Source: Bacteroidota bacterium | GTDB lineage: Bacteria > Bacteroidota > Bacteroidia > Cytophagales > Cyclobacteriaceae | Direction: 5' to 3' | DNA: 64,000 nucleotides | NCBI GenBank assembly: GCA_018266055.1 | Contig: JAFDYT010000002.1 | Span: forward strand, 1-64,000 | In this document: one piece after another, positions 19,009-25,546 of the stretch | Layout of the letters: the number at the start of each line of letters is the position of its first letter | How positions within the stretch are numbered: the first letter of the stretch is position 1 | Made by a program: the position numbers and the translations under genes | Notes under the pieces: generated by a model | Seen by the model: the letters and a program-made list of their open reading frames with translations, nothing else | Databases searched by the model: none | What the model was told of the DNA's origin: nothing

Positions 19009-19560
19009 GTGAAAAAAGCCGTTGCCTTATTTTTAACCATTGTTTTCCTGTTCAATGTAATAGGATACTATGGTATTTATCTGGCCATGGTGACCAAAGC
19101 ACAATCGGCAATGAATCAAAAAATTGATAGCGAAAGCTATAGCGCCGATCAGACACTCACCATCAAAGTGCCTCTCAGCCTGCCTTATCCGGTGCAGCAA
19201 AATGAATATCAGAGTGTTCAAGGCGATTTTGAGCACGGCGGAGAGTTTTACAAACTCGTAAAGCAAAAGTATTCCAACGACACCTTATATATTGTCTGCC
19301 TTAAAAACACAGAAGAGAAGAAGGCTTTCAAGACTCTTAAAGAGTTTGTCAACCTTTCGACAGACCAATCCAACGCGACGGGTAATCAAAACGCCAAAAC
19401 CATCGTCAACATTATTAAAGACTACAATCCCGTTGTAGCTCAGATTCACTTCACTCAGCGTGAAGCCATAGCGCTTGTGAAACCCGCTGCTTTCCATAGC
19501 AGCAAAATTCTTGTTCAGGACTTTCCTGAGTTTTCGCCTCCTCCGGAATCAGCCTGCTGA
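19009..19560 (+). CDS. Membrane-anchored protein of unknown function
   Basis: A 183-residue protein starting at GTG 19009 with one N-terminal hydrophobic helix (about residues 4-28), so it is inner-membrane anchored or secreted. The rest is polar with beta-strand-like alternation (TLTIKVPLSLPY, YKLVKQKYSNDTLYIVCLK) and a proline-rich C-terminus (FPEFSPPPESAC). It lies alone between the mdh terminator and the structured intergenic region, and its stop codon sits inside the left arm of an inverted repeat. The TPR-less, cysteine-poor sequence gives no functional hint and I do not recognise the family. Confidence 0.7.
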   Translation: MKKAVALFLTIVFLFNVIGYYGIYLAMVTKAQSAMNQKIDSESYSADQTLTIKVPLSLPYPVQQNEYQSVQGDFEHGGEFYKLVKQKYSNDTLYIVCLKNTEEKKAFKTLKEFVNLSTDQSNATGNQNAKTIVNIIKDYNPVVAQIHFTQREAIALVKPAAFHSSKILVQDFPEFSPPPESAC

Positions 19561-19693
19561 ATTTTACAGCAGCAATACACACACATCAGAAATGGATTTT
19601 GATTTTACTTCGTCATTGAAGTAATTGATTTCATACCATTCGGATTCTTTAAAACGACTGTTGTAAAATTCTAATTCGTCATTCACGACGAAT
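19559..19693. repeat. Nested stem-loops following the 19009 gene
   Basis: Arms at 19559-19572 and 19658-19671 (GAATTTTACAGCAG and CTGTTGTAAAATTC) pair at all positions with one G-T wobble. Inside lies TTACTTC/GAAGTAA (19605-19611 and 19618-19624). Directly after the right arm lies ATTCGTC/GACGAAT (19674-19680 and 19687-19693). There is no strong T run after any of them, so this is not a simple terminator. No open reading frame of note is present. Confidence 0.6.
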
Positions 19694-19740
19694 CCGTCAG
19701 TCCATCATTTCTATATATTTTTTTGAATAGTTGAGGGGAA

Positions 19741-19852
19741 AAGTGAAAGCCCGTATTAGGGTCGGGCCAAACCAACACTCCCCATTTCGTGAATAGTTTA
19801 GGAAACAGATTACGTGGCACCAGTTCTTGTTAGGGTCAAGACTGGTGTCCAC
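19741..19852 (+). repeat. Tandem hairpin unit, copy 1 (two stem-loops with TTAGGGT loops)
   Basis: The first hairpin is GCCCG (19749-19753) with CGGGC (19763-19767) around TA plus TTAGGGT. The second spans 19814-19852: CACCAGT, a bulged T and CTTG pair with CAAG and ACTGGTG around the loop TTAGGGT (19830-19836), extended outward by GTGG/CCAC. Copy 2 repeats the same order 177-178 bases downstream. Strand is given as that of the downstream genes; the stems read on either strand. Confidence 0.8.
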
Positions 19853-19910
19853 CAAGTCTGAGAAAGCCAGAATTTTTTTACATGAATCATAATTGAATTT
19901 GAAAATAAGA

Positions 19911-20028
19911 AAGTGAACCAGCCAAAGCCCGTTAGGGTCGGGCCTGGCGGCGACACTTTCAAAGTAGTAAATAGTTTAGGGTAAAGATGCGTGGCGCCAG
20001 TTCTTGTTAGGGTCAAGACTGGCGTCAC
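19911..20028 (+). repeat. Tandem hairpin unit, copy 2, directly upstream of the AhpD-like cluster
   Basis: The first hairpin is GCCCG (19927-19931), loop TTAGGGT, CGGGC (19939-19943), enclosed by GCCA/TGGC. The second spans 19991-20028: CGCCAGT, a bulged T and CTTG pair with CAAG and ACTGGCG around TTAGGGT (20007-20013). Relative to copy 1, an A-T pair in the stem has become G-C on both sides, a compensatory change. The linker shares only short words such as AATAGTTTAGG. The unit ends 28 bases before the ATG at 20057. Confidence 0.8.
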
Positions 20029-20056
20029 AAATTTTGAGGGAAAAAATTTAGACAAT

Positions 20057-20623
20057 ATGCCATACATTCCATTAGAAGAACACCTTCCGGGCATCACCGG
20101 GCTACTTGAGTACCGAAGAGACACCGCTGAACCCATTCGGGAACTCACTCAATTTTTATTGCGCGGGCCGTCTTCGCTTACTGAAGGCGAACGTGAACTC
20201 ATCGCTACGATCGTGTCGCACGGCAACCAATGCCGCTTCTGTACCGCGGCTCATACCGCCGCGGCCAACGTGCTGCTCGGCGAATGCGAGACCACTGAAA
20301 AAATCAAGGAGAACATCGCTACAGCGCCCGTCAGTGAAAAAATGAAAGCGCTGCTCACCATCGCCTCACAAGTGCAAAAGAGTGGAAAGGCGGTAACGAC
20401 CGAATCGATTGCTGTGGCCAAAGCTGCGGGAGCAACCGACATCGAAATTCACGACACGGTGTTGATTGCGGCATTGTTCTGTCTGTACAATCGCTACGTG
20501 GATGGATTATCCACCGTAACACCCACCGATCCGAAATTTTATGAAGGGCTTGCATCGCGTATCGCGAAAGGATACCAGCGGTTGCCACAAGGGTACGATC
20601 ATCTAAAGAAAAATATAATTTAA
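20057..20623 (+). CDS. AhpD-like / carboxymuconolactone decarboxylase family protein, paralogue 1
   Basis: A 188-residue all-helical protein of the peroxidase-related AhpD/CMD superfamily, whose characterised members reduce peroxides or disulfides through a CxxC-His site. The motif E47-x11-C59-R-F-C62-x3-H66 matches the AhpD spacing, and IHDTVLIAALF followed by NRYVDGL is shared with all four other copies here. The N-terminus LPGITGLLEYRRDTAEPIREL places it in the same subgroup as paralogue 5. The start is the ATG at 20057; the frame is open upstream but runs into the hairpin repeat. The next paralogue begins 2 bases after the stop. Confidence 0.9.
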   Translation: MPYIPLEEHLPGITGLLEYRRDTAEPIRELTQFLLRGPSSLTEGERELIATIVSHGNQCRFCTAAHTAAANVLLGECETTEKIKENIATAPVSEKMKALLTIASQVQKSGKAVTTESIAVAKAAGATDIEIHDTVLIAALFCLYNRYVDGLSTVTPTDPKFYEGLASRIAKGYQRLPQGYDHLKKNII

Positions 20624-20625
20624 TC

Positions 20626-21171
20626 ATGGCACACATCGCAGTACCCGAAGGAGTTCCCGGCATTCGCAGCCTGGTCATGTTTCGCCCCGAGTCGGGCCAG
20701 CATCTTTATGCATTAGCACAGACTTTACTCAGAGGCGAATCGCCATTGAGCCCTGCCGTGCGTGAATTAATTGCTGCCTTTGTTTCATCTGGAAATGAAT
20801 GTGGCTTTTGTCGCGATAGTCATGCTGCGGCGGCACGGTACTTATTCAAAGACAAAAAAGAAGTAGTCGATTTTGTATTGGATGAATATCATCATGCACC
20901 CATCAGCGAAAAGCTGAAGGCTCTTTTGAACATCGCCGGTAAGGTGAGGAAAAATGGAAAAGAAGTTTCGCCCGAGGATGTGGCGCGCGCGCGGGCGGAA
21001 GGCGCTGACGACCGCGAAATCCACGACACGGTTTTGATCGCTGCTACCTTCAGCATGTTTAATCGCTACGTGGACGGTCTGGCCAGCTTCACCCCTACCG
21101 ACCCCAAAGCTTACGAAGAAATGGGCGTGCGCCTGGGGGAGAAAGGATACGCGTTACCAAAGCCGCAGTAA
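20626..21171 (+). CDS. AhpD-like / CMD family protein, paralogue 2
   Basis: A 181-residue paralogue with the redox motif E47 ... C59-G-F-C62-x3-H66 and the C-terminal signature IHDTVLIAATFSMFNRYVDGL. Its N-terminus (VPGIRSLVMFRPESGQ) belongs to the second subgroup shared with paralogues 3 and 4. It starts 2 bases after paralogue 1, so translation is probably coupled. The physiological substrate and reducing partner are unknown; AhpD itself is recycled by lipoamide, and no such partner gene is nearby. Confidence 0.9.
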   Translation: MAHIAVPEGVPGIRSLVMFRPESGQHLYALAQTLLRGESPLSPAVRELIAAFVSSGNECGFCRDSHAAAARYLFKDKKEVVDFVLDEYHHAPISEKLKALLNIAGKVRKNGKEVSPEDVARARAEGADDREIHDTVLIAATFSMFNRYVDGLASFTPTDPKAYEEMGVRLGEKGYALPKPQ

Positions 21172-21215
21172 GTTGTACGTGATAAGTCTAACGTCTAACA
21201 ACCACCAACTAAAAT

Positions 21216-21764
21216 ATGGCACACATTAATTTACCAGAAGGTCTTCCCGGCATCCGGGGGCCCATGGCATTCCGACCAGAAACGGCAAAGCCTCTCAATC
21301 AGCTGGCGGAAGTTTTGCTTCGCAGTGAAAACTCGTTGACGCGAGGAGAACGCGAATTGATTGCGACGTATGTGTCGTCGCTCAACGATTGTTTCTTCTG
21401 CCAGAACGCGCACGGAGGAATCGCCCAGCATTATCTGCAATGCGACATGAGTTATATCGATGCCGTGAAAAAGGATTTTCAGTCCACCTCTATTTCAGAG
21501 AAGCTCAAATCTCTTTTGGCGATCGCCGGAAGTGTTCAAAAAGGTGGTAAGCATGTAACACCAGAACAGATTGCACAAGCTAAATTCTTTGGGGCAACGG
21601 ATATTGAGATTCACGATACTGTTTTGATTGCTGCGGCCTTCTGTATGTTCAACCGCTATGTGGACGGCCTCGGTACATGGGCTCCTCAAGATCGCAATAT
21701 CTATGTAGCACGTGGGCCACGACGCGCCGAAGAAGGATATATCAATTTTGATCTGTACAAGTAA
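21216..21764 (+). CDS. AhpD-like / CMD family protein, paralogue 3
   Basis: A 182-residue protein with E47 ... C59-F-F-C62-x3-H66 and IHDTVLIAAAFCMFNRYVDGL. It shares LPGIRGPMAFRPETAKPLNQL with subgroup two. The 44-base gap before it contains an imperfect inverted repeat (GTTGT ... ACAAC) around TAAGTCTAACGTCTAAC but no clear promoter. The MetE-like gene follows after 29 bases. Confidence 0.9.
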   Translation: MAHINLPEGLPGIRGPMAFRPETAKPLNQLAEVLLRSENSLTRGERELIATYVSSLNDCFFCQNAHGGIAQHYLQCDMSYIDAVKKDFQSTSISEKLKSLLAIAGSVQKGGKHVTPEQIAQAKFFGATDIEIHDTVLIAAAFCMFNRYVDGLGTWAPQDRNIYVARGPRRAEEGYINFDLYK

Positions 21765-21793
21765 TACATCTCATAAACCAAAACCAATTGATT

Positions 21794-22858
21794 ATGAAAA
21801 TCGCAACGGAACCAGTTGGCAGCATCCCACGGCCGGGCTATCTCATCGAAGCGATGGGAGCATTTCAAAAGGGTCAAATCAAAGAACATGAATTGGAGCA
21901 GCTCACCGAGCAGGCCTTGAAAGAAACAATCAAATTGTTTGAGCAAACCGGATCACCCGTAATCTCCGATGGCGAGCAATCGAAACCAAGTTTTGTAACA
22001 TACCCAATTCATGGCTCAAAATACCTCGCACCGGATGGTGTCGTGATTCCCTTTGCCGACGGGCACACACGGCAGTTGCCGAAGCTTACGGCTGGACCTT
22101 TTCACTATCAAAGCTACGCCAGTCGCTATTTTGAAAAAGCTAAAACATTCACGCATTTGCCGTTGAAACAAGCCGTCATATCTTCTTCAGCCATCAGCCT
22201 GTTGTATCCTCAAGAAGGAATTTCCGGATATTCAAGAGACAAGTTCATCAGTGATCTGGTCAACGAGGCTGAGGCAGACATCCGGAAATGTTTGAATGCC
22301 GGCGCGCACAACGTGCAGATTGATTTTACCGAAGCCCGACTGGCGATCAAACTTGATCCTTCAAAAGGGTTGCTGAAAATGTTTATTGACTTGAATAATC
22401 AGGTGCTTGACCGGTTTACAGCATCCGAGAAAAAAAGAATAGGCGTACACACGTGCCCTGGCGGTGATCATGACTCCACGCATAGCGCAGACATCAGCTA
22501 CACGGATTTGCTGCCGTTGTTATTTCAGCTCCATGCAGGAAATTTCTATCTGGAGTACGCGGCTGAAAAAGATAAGATCAACACCTTGAAGGCGATTCGC
22601 GAATTTTCTACGCCGGATCAAAAAATTTTTATTGGAGTAACCAACGTGCTAAGTCCACGAGTTGAAACTCCAGAAGAAATATGTGACTTGATTCTGGAAG
22701 CGGCCGAATACATTCCTGCAGATCGCCTGGGCTCGACTGACGACTGCGGCTTCTCTCCTTTTGCCGATGACGTTTCTACAGCACGTGAAACGGCATTTGC
22801 TAAAATAAGAGCGCGAGTGGAGGGAACAGCGATGGCCGAAAGGAAACTAGCCGTCTAA
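21794..22858 (+). CDS. MetE C-terminal-like (cobalamin-independent methionine synthase family) protein
   Basis: A single-domain 354-residue member of the UROD/MetE-like superfamily. Zinc ligands are conserved: H219-T-C221 (in VHTCPGG), E254 (in YLEYA) and C318 (in TDDCGF), spaced as in MetE. The fold starts with ATEPVGSIPRPGYL and has ISDGEQSKPSF. Family members use zinc to activate a thiol for alkyl transfer: MetE methylates homocysteine, and the related epoxyalkane:coenzyme M transferase conjugates epoxides. The N-terminal half of a true MetE is absent, so methionine synthesis is only one option. The ATG at 21794 is preferred over a TTG six bases earlier. Confidence 0.88.
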   Translation: MKIATEPVGSIPRPGYLIEAMGAFQKGQIKEHELEQLTEQALKETIKLFEQTGSPVISDGEQSKPSFVTYPIHGSKYLAPDGVVIPFADGHTRQLPKLTAGPFHYQSYASRYFEKAKTFTHLPLKQAVISSSAISLLYPQEGISGYSRDKFISDLVNEAEADIRKCLNAGAHNVQIDFTEARLAIKLDPSKGLLKMFIDLNNQVLDRFTASEKKRIGVHTCPGGDHDSTHSADISYTDLLPLLFQLHAGNFYLEYAAEKDKINTLKAIREFSTPDQKIFIGVTNVLSPRVETPEEICDLILEAAEYIPADRLGSTDDCGFSPFADDVSTARETAFAKIRARVEGTAMAERKLAV

Positions 22859-22916
22859 AAAATCCTATACTTCGTAACTCGAAGAGTAATTAACTTTAGA
22901 AGACAAAAATTAACCC

Positions 22917-24062
22917 ATGAAAAAACTCTTTTACATCGGCATCGTCGGAATCATTCTTTTTGAATTATTCAACGTGTATTTCATCATGCCCATGCCGGGA
23001 AGTCAGCGTATGCAAAGTATTGACGTAGCCTACTTTCTTTACAGCTATCGATGGTACTTCAGAATTGTATTCGGACTGATGATTGTTGCCGGAGTAAAGC
23101 CGTCCTTCCAAACCAAGCAAAAATGGGTGCCGGCGTTGGCGATCGTTGCAGTCCTAGTCGCGATCTATATGTTCAACTTTGTGATGGCTGCCGATGCCAT
23201 GTTCAAACAGCCTACACAACTCACTTTTCTTCCGAAAGAAAAAAACCTGCTGAGCGACAGCAGTATGGTGATCGGCGTAGAACATAACGGCGAAGTAAAA
23301 GCCTATCCCATTCGCTTTATTGTGTATCATCATCAGGTGCAGGACGTAATCGGAGGGAAGTCAGTGATCGTAACTTATTGCAGTGTATGCCGCACCGGGC
23401 GCGTGTATGAGCCTTCAGTAAAAGGCAAACCTGAAAAATTCCGTCTGGTAGGTATGGACCATTTCAACGCAATGTTTGAAGATGCAGCTACCAAAAGCTG
23501 GTGGCGTCAGGTGAACGGTGAAGCAATCACCGGTTCGCTGAAAGGAGAAGTACTACCAGAAGTTCCTTCGTTTCAGATTTCCTTAAGGAAATTATTCGAG
23601 TTGTATCCCAACGCGCTGGTGATGCAAATCGATCAGGAATCGAAGTCCCATTACGATTCACTTGGAAAATTTGAGCGAGGCAAAAGCAAAAGCGACCTTA
23701 CCCGTACTGACAGTCTTTCGTGGAAAGACAAATCGTGGGTAGTCGGAATTCAGGTAGGATCAGCGAGCAAAGCTTACGACTGGAACAAACTCAAAGAAGT
23801 GCATGTCATCAACGATGAAGTGGGAGGCAAAGCTATCGTGCTGGTGCTGTCTGCCGACAATCAGAGTTTTGCAGCCTACGAGCGATCTGCCGGAGAATCT
23901 TTCGCTTTCCGCAATGACACGCTATTAGTCAGCACCTCACGGTATAATTTTTCCGGCGCTAATCTTTCAGGCTCCGGGTCTTCGTTAAAAAAAATCAACG
24001 CTTATCAGGAGTTCTGGCACAGTTGGAAGACATTCCACCCGAAGACAGATCAGTATAAGTAG
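22917..24062 (+). CDS. DUF3179 membrane protein
   Basis: A 381-residue protein with three hydrophobic helices in the first 95 residues (about 5-25, 43-60 and 70-92) and a large domain beyond them. The hallmark of the DUF3179 family is present: MVIGVEHNGEVKAYPIRFI, then VTYCSVCRTGRVYEP, then MDHFNAMFEDAATKSWWRQ. The CSVC pair and the following His/Trp-rich segment suggest a metal or redox site, but no function is established for the family. A TAACTTTA (22891-22898), one mismatch from the -7 consensus, may supply an internal promoter. It is enclosed by AhpD-like genes on both sides. Confidence 0.88.
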   Translation: MKKLFYIGIVGIILFELFNVYFIMPMPGSQRMQSIDVAYFLYSYRWYFRIVFGLMIVAGVKPSFQTKQKWVPALAIVAVLVAIYMFNFVMAADAMFKQPTQLTFLPKEKNLLSDSSMVIGVEHNGEVKAYPIRFIVYHHQVQDVIGGKSVIVTYCSVCRTGRVYEPSVKGKPEKFRLVGMDHFNAMFEDAATKSWWRQVNGEAITGSLKGEVLPEVPSFQISLRKLFELYPNALVMQIDQESKSHYDSLGKFERGKSKSDLTRTDSLSWKDKSWVVGIQVGSASKAYDWNKLKEVHVINDEVGGKAIVLVLSADNQSFAAYERSAGESFAFRNDTLLVSTSRYNFSGANLSGSGSSLKKINAYQEFWHSWKTFHPKTDQYK

Positions 24063-24087
24063 TAAACCAAAAAAATCAATTTCAGTT

Positions 24088-24648
24088 ATGCCACACATTG
24101 ATCTTCCTAAAGAATATCCGGGCATCCGAAGCTTGTTTATGTTTCGACCAGAAACGGCTGCGCCATTGAATGCGCTCGTGCAAATTCTGCTACACAATCC
24201 TCATCCTTCGCTTACGCCGGGTGAGCGAGAACTTATCGCTACGCGCGTATCAAGTCTGAACAATTGCAAGTATTGCGCTACCATTCATGGAGCAATCGCC
24301 AAGCATCACCTCCACAATGGCGATGTAGTAGAAATTGTAAAAGTTGATCCTGACGCAGCGCCGATCAGTTCAAAACTAAAAGCACTGTTAAAAATCGCAG
24401 GAAAAGTACAGCTGAGCGGCAAAGAGGTTTCCTCCGCTGACGTTGACGCAGCCAGAAAGGAAGGCGCAACCGACCTGGAGATTCATGACACTGTGTTGAT
24501 CGCTGCTGCCTTTTGCCTTTTCAATCGATACGTCGATGGCCTGGCTACATGGGCACCTGATGATCTGGATGTTTATGATCGCATGGGCAAGCAGCGGGCG
24601 GAAGAAGGCTACCTGACACCTCCTTTTAAAATTCAACCAAAGCCTTGA
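24088..24648 (+). CDS. AhpD-like / CMD family protein, paralogue 4
   Basis: A 186-residue protein with E48 ... C60-K-Y-C63-x3-H67 (shifted by one residue owing to an extra proline) and IHDTVLIAAAFCLFNRYVDGL. The N-terminus YPGIRSLFMFRPETAAPLNAL places it in subgroup two with paralogues 2 and 3. It lies 25 bases downstream of the DUF3179 gene. Confidence 0.9.
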   Translation: MPHIDLPKEYPGIRSLFMFRPETAAPLNALVQILLHNPHPSLTPGERELIATRVSSLNNCKYCATIHGAIAKHHLHNGDVVEIVKVDPDAAPISSKLKALLKIAGKVQLSGKEVSSADVDAARKEGATDLEIHDTVLIAAAFCLFNRYVDGLATWAPDDLDVYDRMGKQRAEEGYLTPPFKIQPKP

Positions 24649-24674
24649 GCACTAACAAACCAAACTAAATAAGT

Positions 24675-25235
24675 ATGCCACATATTCCTTTGGATGCGAA
24701 CCTGCCGGGGATCACAGGTATTCTCAACTACAGAACAGACACGGCTTTGCCAATCCGTGAGCTAACACACTTGCTTCTGCGGGGCGAATCTACCTTAACA
24801 CGCGCTGAACGCGAGTTGATTGCAACGGTAGTGTCGTACGGAAACGAATGCAAATTTTGCACCGCTGCCCATGCTGCCACCGCAGATTTGCTACTGGGTG
24901 AAAAAGAGACTGTTGAAAAAGTTAAACACAACCACGAGCACGCGCCCGTGAGCACCAAGATGAAAACCTTACTGACCATTGCACGCGCGGTTCAGGTGAG
25001 CGGAAAAAATGTAACAACAGAAATGATTCAGCACGCCAAGGCTGAAGGTGCAAGCGATCTTGAAATTCACGACACCGTGCTAATCGCTGCGTTGTTTTCA
25101 CTGTACAATCGACTTGTCGATGGATTAGCCAGCATTACACCAACAGAGCCTGCATTCTATGATCGTCTGGCCCACATTCTGGTGGAAAAGGGTTACCTCC
25201 CTTCCGAGAATCGATACGCTTCATTAAATTCATGA
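24675..25235 (+). CDS. AhpD-like / CMD family protein, paralogue 5
   Basis: A 186-residue protein with E47 ... C59-K-F-C62-x3-H66 and IHDTVLIAALFSLYNRLVDGL. Its N-terminus LPGITGILNYRTDTALPIREL is closest to paralogue 1, so the array reads A-B-B, two other genes, B-A. It is 26 bases after paralogue 4. Confidence 0.9.
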   Translation: MPHIPLDANLPGITGILNYRTDTALPIRELTHLLLRGESTLTRAERELIATVVSYGNECKFCTAAHAATADLLLGEKETVEKVKHNHEHAPVSTKMKTLLTIARAVQVSGKNVTTEMIQHAKAEGASDLEIHDTVLIAALFSLYNRLVDGLASITPTEPAFYDRLAHILVEKGYLPSENRYASLNS

Positions 25236-25282: not shown

Positions 25283-25546
25283 ATGGCTACACAAAACGAT
25301 GCGGTTATCAGCAACCAAAAAGTAATCAAAAACAATCAAGGTGCTATTCTGAAAAATCAGGGCGACTTGAAATCCAATCAAAAAGTGATTATCGACAATC
25401 AAAAATCACTCAAGCAAAACCAGCAGTCAATTCTTGCAAATCAAAAAGCAATCATCAACAACCAGAACAACATTCTGAAAAACCAGAAAACACTAGACTT
25501 GATCGTAAAGAATCAGCAAGCGATTCTTAAATTGCTGAAAAAATAA
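25283..25546 (+). CDS. Asn-Gln heptad-repeat peptide of unknown function
   Basis: An 87-residue protein made almost entirely of a seven-residue repeat N-Q-x-x-[ILV]-x-x. The N-Q pairs fall at residues 11, 18, 25, 32, 39, 46, 53, 60 and 67, and a final one at 77 after a ten-residue step. Aliphatic residues lie at 15, 22, 29, 36, 43, 50, 57, 64 and 71. As a coiled coil this would give alternating aliphatic and asparagine core layers; a repetitive beta structure is an alternative. It has no signal peptide, cysteine or aromatic residue. It sits 47 bases after paralogue 5 and 19 bases before the transporter gene. No function is assigned. Confidence 0.8.
   Translation: MATQNDAVISNQKVIKNNQGAILKNQGDLKSNQKVIIDNQKSLKQNQQSILANQKAIINNQNNILKNQKTLDLIVKNQQAILKLLKK

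Follow-up and report, generated by a model that had tools for sequence, protein, structure and literature searches.

To our knowledge, few leader RNAs have been described in the bacterial group to which the locus analysed here belongs. The closest known RNA in style is the pan motif, described as a simple hairpin that occurs mostly in tandem upstream of panB, panC and aspartate decarboxylase operons, whose stem is interrupted by two conserved bulged A residues and for which its authors suggest a dimeric protein-binding motif (PMC2864571). In the same source, guanidine-II (mini-ykkC) RNAs are described with ACGR loops (PMC2864571). ANTAR targets are pairs of hairpins whose conserved loops are alike and which, in the case of EutV, are recognised by a dimeric protein; their stems have 3 bp, their hexanucleotide loops carry A first and G fourth, the linker measures 5-12 nt in the E. 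faecalis eut genes, and a terminator is prevented (PMC3369931). Among RNA-binding proteins, RbpB of Bacteroides is reported to prefer single-stranded regions for binding, and its sRNA targets share a motif of 41 nt (PMC11697453).

The element analysed here lies in a 64-kb stretch of DNA, referred to as the window, in which four strong hairpins whose apical loops contain UUAGGGU occupy positions 19735-20028 and an AhpD-like gene of the carboxymuconolactone decarboxylase (CMD) family starts 28 bases downstream. The features of the locus are as follows, with folding energies of the hairpins.

19009 to 19560, + strand: upstream gene, 183 amino acids
19559 to 19671, + strand: long-range inverted repeat at the stop codon of the upstream gene, arms 19559-19572 and 19658-19671
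19735 to 19783, + strand: hairpin 1 of copy 1, outer stem GGGG 19735-19738 / CCCC 19780-19783, inner stem GCCCG 19749-19753 / CGGGC 19763-19767, loop TATTAGGGT, -17.1 kcal/mol
19814 to 19852, + strand: hairpin 2 of copy 1, long stem, loop TTAGGGT 19830-19836, -28.0 kcal/mol
19909 to 19960, + strand: hairpin 1 of copy 2, outer stem GAAAGTG 19909-19915 / CACTTTC 19954-19960, inner stem GCCCG 19927-19931 / CGGGC 19939-19943, loop TTAGGGT 19932-19938, -25.2 kcal/mol
19976 to 19982, + strand: fifth TTAGGGT, in the linker of copy 2, without a stable hairpin (-5.3 kcal/mol)
19991 to 20028, + strand: hairpin 2 of copy 2, long stem, loop TTAGGGT 20007-20013, -26.3 kcal/mol
20057 to 20623, + strand: first gene of the cluster, AhpD-like / CMD family, with CxxCxxxH
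20626 to 25235, + strand: rest of the cluster, two CMD genes, a MetE-like gene (21788-22858), a DUF3179 gene (22917-24062) and two CMD genes

An earlier sequence-only reading had placed four stem-loops at 19749, 19814, 19927 and 19991, and these were recovered on the sequence together with the period of 177-178 bases between the two copies and the 28 bases from the end of the last hairpin to the ATG at 20057. Its statement that all loops are TTAGGGT holds for three hairpins, while the loop of the first is TATTAGGGT, nine bases long and not exactly TTAGGGT. The two-sided change that it had noticed in the long stem, by which an A-T pair of one copy is G-C in the other (CACCAGT/ACTGGTG to CGCCAGT/ACTGGCG), is real. 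Beyond this description, closing stems flank both short hairpins, and the copy 2 linker holds a further TTAGGGT, the fifth, which is unpaired.

The element resembles the pan motif in that simple tandem hairpins stand upstream of one kind of operon, and differs from it in the conserved part, which is the apical loop UU[A/U]GGGU(U), and in the genes concerned; by eye on the folds, no bulged A common to the window hairpins and those of relatives was found. With the ANTAR-target RNA (the dual hexaloop antiterminator of EutV/NasR/AmiR) it shares paired hairpins with alike conserved loops, but its stems have at least 5 pairs, its loops have at least 7 bases with UU[A/U]GGGU(U), the folds put its linkers at about 17-48 nt (window: 30 nt) and the window is without a terminator-like site. 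The distance from loop to loop is 73-79 nt in the window and its genus and 60-95 nt in Chryseolinea. An ANTAR target was accordingly rejected on loop size, loop letters, stem and linker. A search for the ANTAR protein domain PF03861 gave no match in the window's own genome, but it gave none in any of 14 control genomes either. Guanidine-II was rejected likewise, since the four window loops contain no ACGR, no Rfam match was obtained and the genes are others. The earlier remark that no named RNA family is recognisable is borne out for Rfam 15, which gave no match over the window at the gathering cut-off; in 19500-20100, at E <= 5, only four matches far below the cut-off appeared (a microRNA, two snoRNAs and the sRNA SorX). 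A literature description of the element was not found among the open-licence papers searched, nor did that literature yield a paper on Chryseolinea together with a riboswitch.

The first gene of the cluster matches Pfam CMD PF02627 (E 2.7e-12) and scores above the cut-off of NCBIfam TIGR01926, peroxidase-related enzyme, and the same-strand cluster at 20057-25235 holds five CMD genes besides the DUF3179 and MetE-like genes. AhpD and DUF3179 are named together in selenoprotein reviews. After the CMD cluster, at 25283-25546, lies an 87-aa open reading frame composed almost entirely of NQK-type repeats (NNQGAILKNQGDLKSNQKV...). The 183-aa upstream gene has no Pfam or NCBIfam match; its relatives also precede the element in L156, L158, L159, L160, L161 and L147. 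The inverted repeat at its stop codon is of the type TTTACAGC..GCTGTAAA, and similar arms were seen by eye in the same-genus loci L034, L035, L039 and L040; this repeat may be part of the leader or of the upstream gene's 3' end. Next to the element no gene stood out as a candidate regulator, and patterns for sigma-70 and Bacteroidetes promoters gave nothing consistent between genomes.

Folding of 19730-20060 yields -108.2 kcal/mol as compared with -81.9 (sd 5.4) for shuffled sequences (z -4.9), with none of 100 shuffles as good. In the whole window TTAGGGT is not over-represented (5 found against 4.49 expected), and all five occurrences fall on a single strand within the 258 bases of 19756-20013, where four of the five motif sites close hairpins of -17.1 to -28.0 kcal/mol and the fifth reaches -5.3. 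At 302 motif sites outside leaders, taken on both strands from 80 fetched loci and the window, the mean is -5.1 kcal/mol (sd 4.4) and the lowest value -18.7. Hairpins of -15 kcal/mol or lower are closed at 10 of these 302 sites as against 21 of 35 motif sites in the 81 leaders scanned, the 21 coming from related leaders and hence not being 21 independent cases, and the scan pattern (TT[A/T]GGGT or TTTGGTT) being one that would miss other loops. In the window's own genome, three of 23 occurrences of GTTAGGGTC form strong hairpins (-25.2 to -28.0), all three in the window leader, and the remaining 20 range from 0 to -11.9, this pattern being blind to loops closed by other bases, such as that of the first window hairpin. 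A paralogue of the 183-aa gene (L183) is located on the minus strand of contig C19 of the same genome, and near it two GTTAGGGTC lie 108 bases apart without strong hairpins (0 and -8.0).

Searches in relatives place the element, or a degraded form of it, before the same gene in 10 further genomes of the family, comprising G001, G002, G033, G313 and G374 (where the gene is truncated) in the same genus and G072, G150, G192, G219 and G238 in the genus that holds Chryseolinea. A DNA search with the leader and first gene matched in 12 of 58 genomes, own included, and among the 13 loci whose upstream part was inspected, TTAGGGT hairpins precede the gene in the window, L004, L005 and L007. A protein search of named genomes, from which the best 80 of 307 matching stretches were taken and 500 upstream bases examined per locus (138 in L036), revealed TTAGGG upstream in seven of these best 80 and the hairpin pair in four, namely L034, L035 and L039, which are the same genomes as L004, L005 and L007, and L040, with which G313 was equated through coordinates. 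By folding, the same arrangement with UUUGGGUU loops is present in the Chryseolinea loci L048, L064 and L074, of which L064 comes from the culturable Chryseolinea serpens DSM 24574, and also in L038 (Chryseolinea), whose first hairpin is ambiguous, and the cut-off leader of L036 retains one UUUGGGUU-loop hairpin. Loops across the carriers are mostly UU[A/U]GGGU(U); the first hairpins of L064 and L074 show UUUGGUU instead of GGGU, and G374 has altered loops. Among the 81 leaders scanned, 10 have hairpins with this type of loop and 71 do not. Two hairpins sharing at least 7 loop letters are found in 9 of 81 leaders as compared with 1 among 382 control stretches taken from these loci; four of these nine carry the window-type element, L053 has another pair, and the others are L050, L060, L096 and L105.

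The number of hairpins is two in most carriers, four in the window, three in L038 (one weak, at 2617, -10.5) and five in L048 (one weak, at 2664, -9.9); in the window's genome the customary pair has been doubled. The sequence-only reading had taken a double hairpin as the repeat unit; the tandem period stands, and the unit is better taken as a single hairpin because the L048 leader has five.

A covarying structure stands at a fixed place before orthologous genes, as is characteristic of a leader RNA. In a seven-sequence alignment made without the window, 81.6% of cells are paired, 12 of 21 pairs show a two-sided change and the covariation score is 0.451 as against 0.300 (sd 0.037) when shuffled; further pair types, numbering 25, do not exceed the shuffled level (23.0), and 131 of 500 shuffles reached that number. 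In the 11-sequence alignment (A6) the corresponding values are 84.2% paired cells against 68.5% shuffled, two-sided changes in 15 of 21 pairs and a score of 0.542 against 0.266 (sd 0.030), falling to 0.07-0.21 (maximum 0.213) when partners are slid; the figures of A6 lean towards structure, because the alignment was made to fit the structure of the model and consists of related rows. Identity over nine sequences is 73-75% in the loops, 51% in the stems and 47% in the linker. Stem cells over 11 sequences contain 34 G-U as compared with 12 A-C, as expected of RNA on this strand. The earlier suggestion of selection on structure is thus supported by relatives at the same place with covarying stems and kept loops, as is its proposal of a structured leader RNA. 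Its second proposal, a protein-binding DNA element, has become less likely: single-stranded hairpins or operators for a DNA-binding protein could make use of inverted repeats, which would suit a dimer, but the stems diverge and still pair, G-U outnumbers A-C as given above and the members found read UUNGGGU on the coding strand, which makes this explanation highly improbable.

A covariance-model search, the kind of check put forward earlier, was carried out in the own genome and in relatives. Model R1, built from the seven-sequence alignment without the window and run over 88 sources (583,786 bases), gave 14 matches, in which ranks 1-7 are the training set, rank 8 is L038, an untrained Chryseolinea leader (44.5 bits), and ranks 9 and 10 are copy 1 (21.8 bits, E 0.094) and copy 2 (18.3 bits, E 0.57) of the window, both marginal. 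There follow a match in L036 (17.3 bits, E 0.97), two further L048 hairpins and one match on the opposite strand that looks like chance. The window matches are convincing despite their marginal E-values because they land in the expected leader, and hairpin 1 of copy 1 falls inside the cmsearch match 19738-19855. Over 62 genomes of the genus, R1 matched 13 places in 12 genomes at E <= 1, of which four strong ones belong to genomes of training members, one is G374 (E 0.0026), the window accounts for one more and the rest are weak (G025, G026, G393, G005, G031, G376 and a second place in G374); the G025 match was discounted, as it lies inside an open reading frame.

Model R2, built from nine sequences with the window included, gives better E-values but was trained on the window units. 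In 390 genomes of the family it found 14 places in 13 genomes at E <= 0.05, 12 of them being leaders of CMD genes (two in the window), and its matches in G285 and G026 were judged chance as no CMD gene follows. Across 390 genomes of the order, a set that overlaps in part with that of the family, three match, all of the own genus. In searches over 40 genomes, stricter filters applied and few candidates were scored per genome, so that weak members may be lost. A TTAGGGT pair pattern matched in 196 of 390 family genomes and was set aside as evidence, being mainly chance, since its read-backwards control also matches many of the rows listed; it did reveal G313.

Where found, the element occupies one locus per genome and is not a dispersed repeat. 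R2 at E <= 10 returned from the own genome the two window units only; copies next to unrelated genes, which had been named as a sign of a mobile repeat, did not appear there. A mobile or REP-like repeat would account for two tandem copies 177-178 bases apart, but the own genome holds no second copy of the 288 bases, and in the genus holding Chryseolinea five of the six genomes searched match R2 at one place each, four of the five being Chryseolinea (L038, L048, L064, L074); the small mobile element considered earlier is therefore scarcely credible. In a tree of the first CMD protein with 82 rows, the 11 carriers need 6 changes, at least 2 of them forced by starred branches, as compared with a mean of 10.6 for shuffled carrier labels (1 of 500 as low as 6); the element may be old with losses, or may have moved. 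Locus L147, on the minus strand of G374:C88 at 1501-1637, has a recognisable element before a broken CMD gene, the leader being judged kept beside a broken gene because the CMD reading leaves the family after about 40 residues.

A conserved structured leader is well supported by these results, and, with the loop retained in relatives whose stems have changed, the element is very probably a regulatory RNA, apparently undescribed so far. Since the stems change and still pair while the loops stay, something seems to read the loop. On balance we lean towards a protein-binding cis-acting leader RNA of the AhpD-like (CMD) operon, in which the loops would be repeated sites for a trans-acting factor. 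The region, which we infer to be transcribed, would act as RNA 5' of the operon and would display UU[A/U]GGGU(U) repeatedly on hairpins whose stems are free to vary as long as they pair. The factor reading the loops would most likely be an oligomeric RNA-binding protein, presumably favoured over a metabolite, to which two or more hairpins would offer avidity, and its binding would raise or lower expression of the operon through a controlled step that is presumably transcription, translation or decay. If true, this would be an undescribed structured RNA linking RNA-level control to AhpD-like, peroxidase-related operons, and the naturally varying number of same-loop hairpins would provide a clean test system for multivalent RNA sites in gene control.

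The main rival, in itself unlikely, is a small-molecule riboswitch whose hairpin loops dock on each other in the manner of guanidine-II (mini-ykkC). Two same-loop hairpins joined by a variable linker, at a single locus per genome before one kind of operon, would suit such a riboswitch, and it is likewise unlikely that the tandem copy of the window serves to sharpen a riboswitch response. The loop is, however, not ACGR and has no Rfam match, UUAGGGU is not self-complementary, and beyond the loops and two invariant stem pairs a complex conserved core was not seen. The variable hairpin number, with arrays of up to five, is easier to reconcile with separate sites that one factor binds independently than with one pocket for a ligand.

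Rather less probable still is that the hairpins serve the upstream gene, or a processed operon, as terminators or for RNA stability, with the loop kept because it is stable and not because it is recognised. The hairpin region begins about 170 bases after the stop codon of that gene, a T-rich tail follows the second hairpin in L034, L035 and L039, and terminator-like sites number 7 in L034 (1.0 expected) and 4 in L039 (0.7 expected), one and two of which, respectively, coincide with hairpin 2 on the coding strand. Against this, the window has no terminator-like site (1.3 expected), the L048 coding strand has none either, and termination does not require two to five hairpins to share one loop. 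An intrinsic terminator is not part of the element in the window.

Loop pairing within the mRNA was rejected. In the window, no loop complement of at least 6 bases is present in 560 bases upstream and 600 bases downstream of the start, and none is kept across all nine genomes compared, which speaks against such pairing. Complements of 8 bases in L034 and L039 (-329) and of 7 bases in L040 (-301) fall within the final codons of the upstream gene, a place at which L035, the window and the Chryseolinea loci have none. A G-quadruplex formed by the GGG loops was rejected, by reasoning, as a mechanism valid for all carriers: relatives with two hairpins offer only two GGG loops, and in L064 and L074 the first hairpin has GG.

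For the protein that the preferred reading, a protein-binding leader, calls for, RRM proteins may offer a lead, and only a lead, by analogy. Bacteroidota have RRM-type RNA regulators such as RbpB, and the own genome has two RRM_1 matches, one with a 70-residue matched piece that fits NCBIfam NF058537; RbpB differs in its preference for single-stranded regions and in the 41-nt motif of its sRNA targets, as compared with a short hairpin loop here. Eukaryotic RRM proteins can bind UUAGGG. A bolder proposal, to which we assign a low probability, is that AhpD-like operons of Bacteroidota are under an undescribed hairpin-counting RNA-binding regulator with clade-specific loop codes, whose reader would possibly be of a UUAGGG-recognising RRM type. 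At the same low probability, the code would be UUNGGGU in these Cytophagales and UAAUUC-type hairpins in some Chitinophagaceae leaders, and, no more probably, leaders would gain or lose hairpins and thereby set the response.

CMD leaders in records of Chitinophagaceae contain one or two copies of a different conserved hairpin, GGCGUUGUAAUUCUUUAC..GCC or a variant of it, and it is possible that this hairpin is a second loop code at the same place. Its positions from the CMD start are -188 and -59 in L052, -183 and -57 in L053, -63 in L046, -44 in L084 and -43 in L086.
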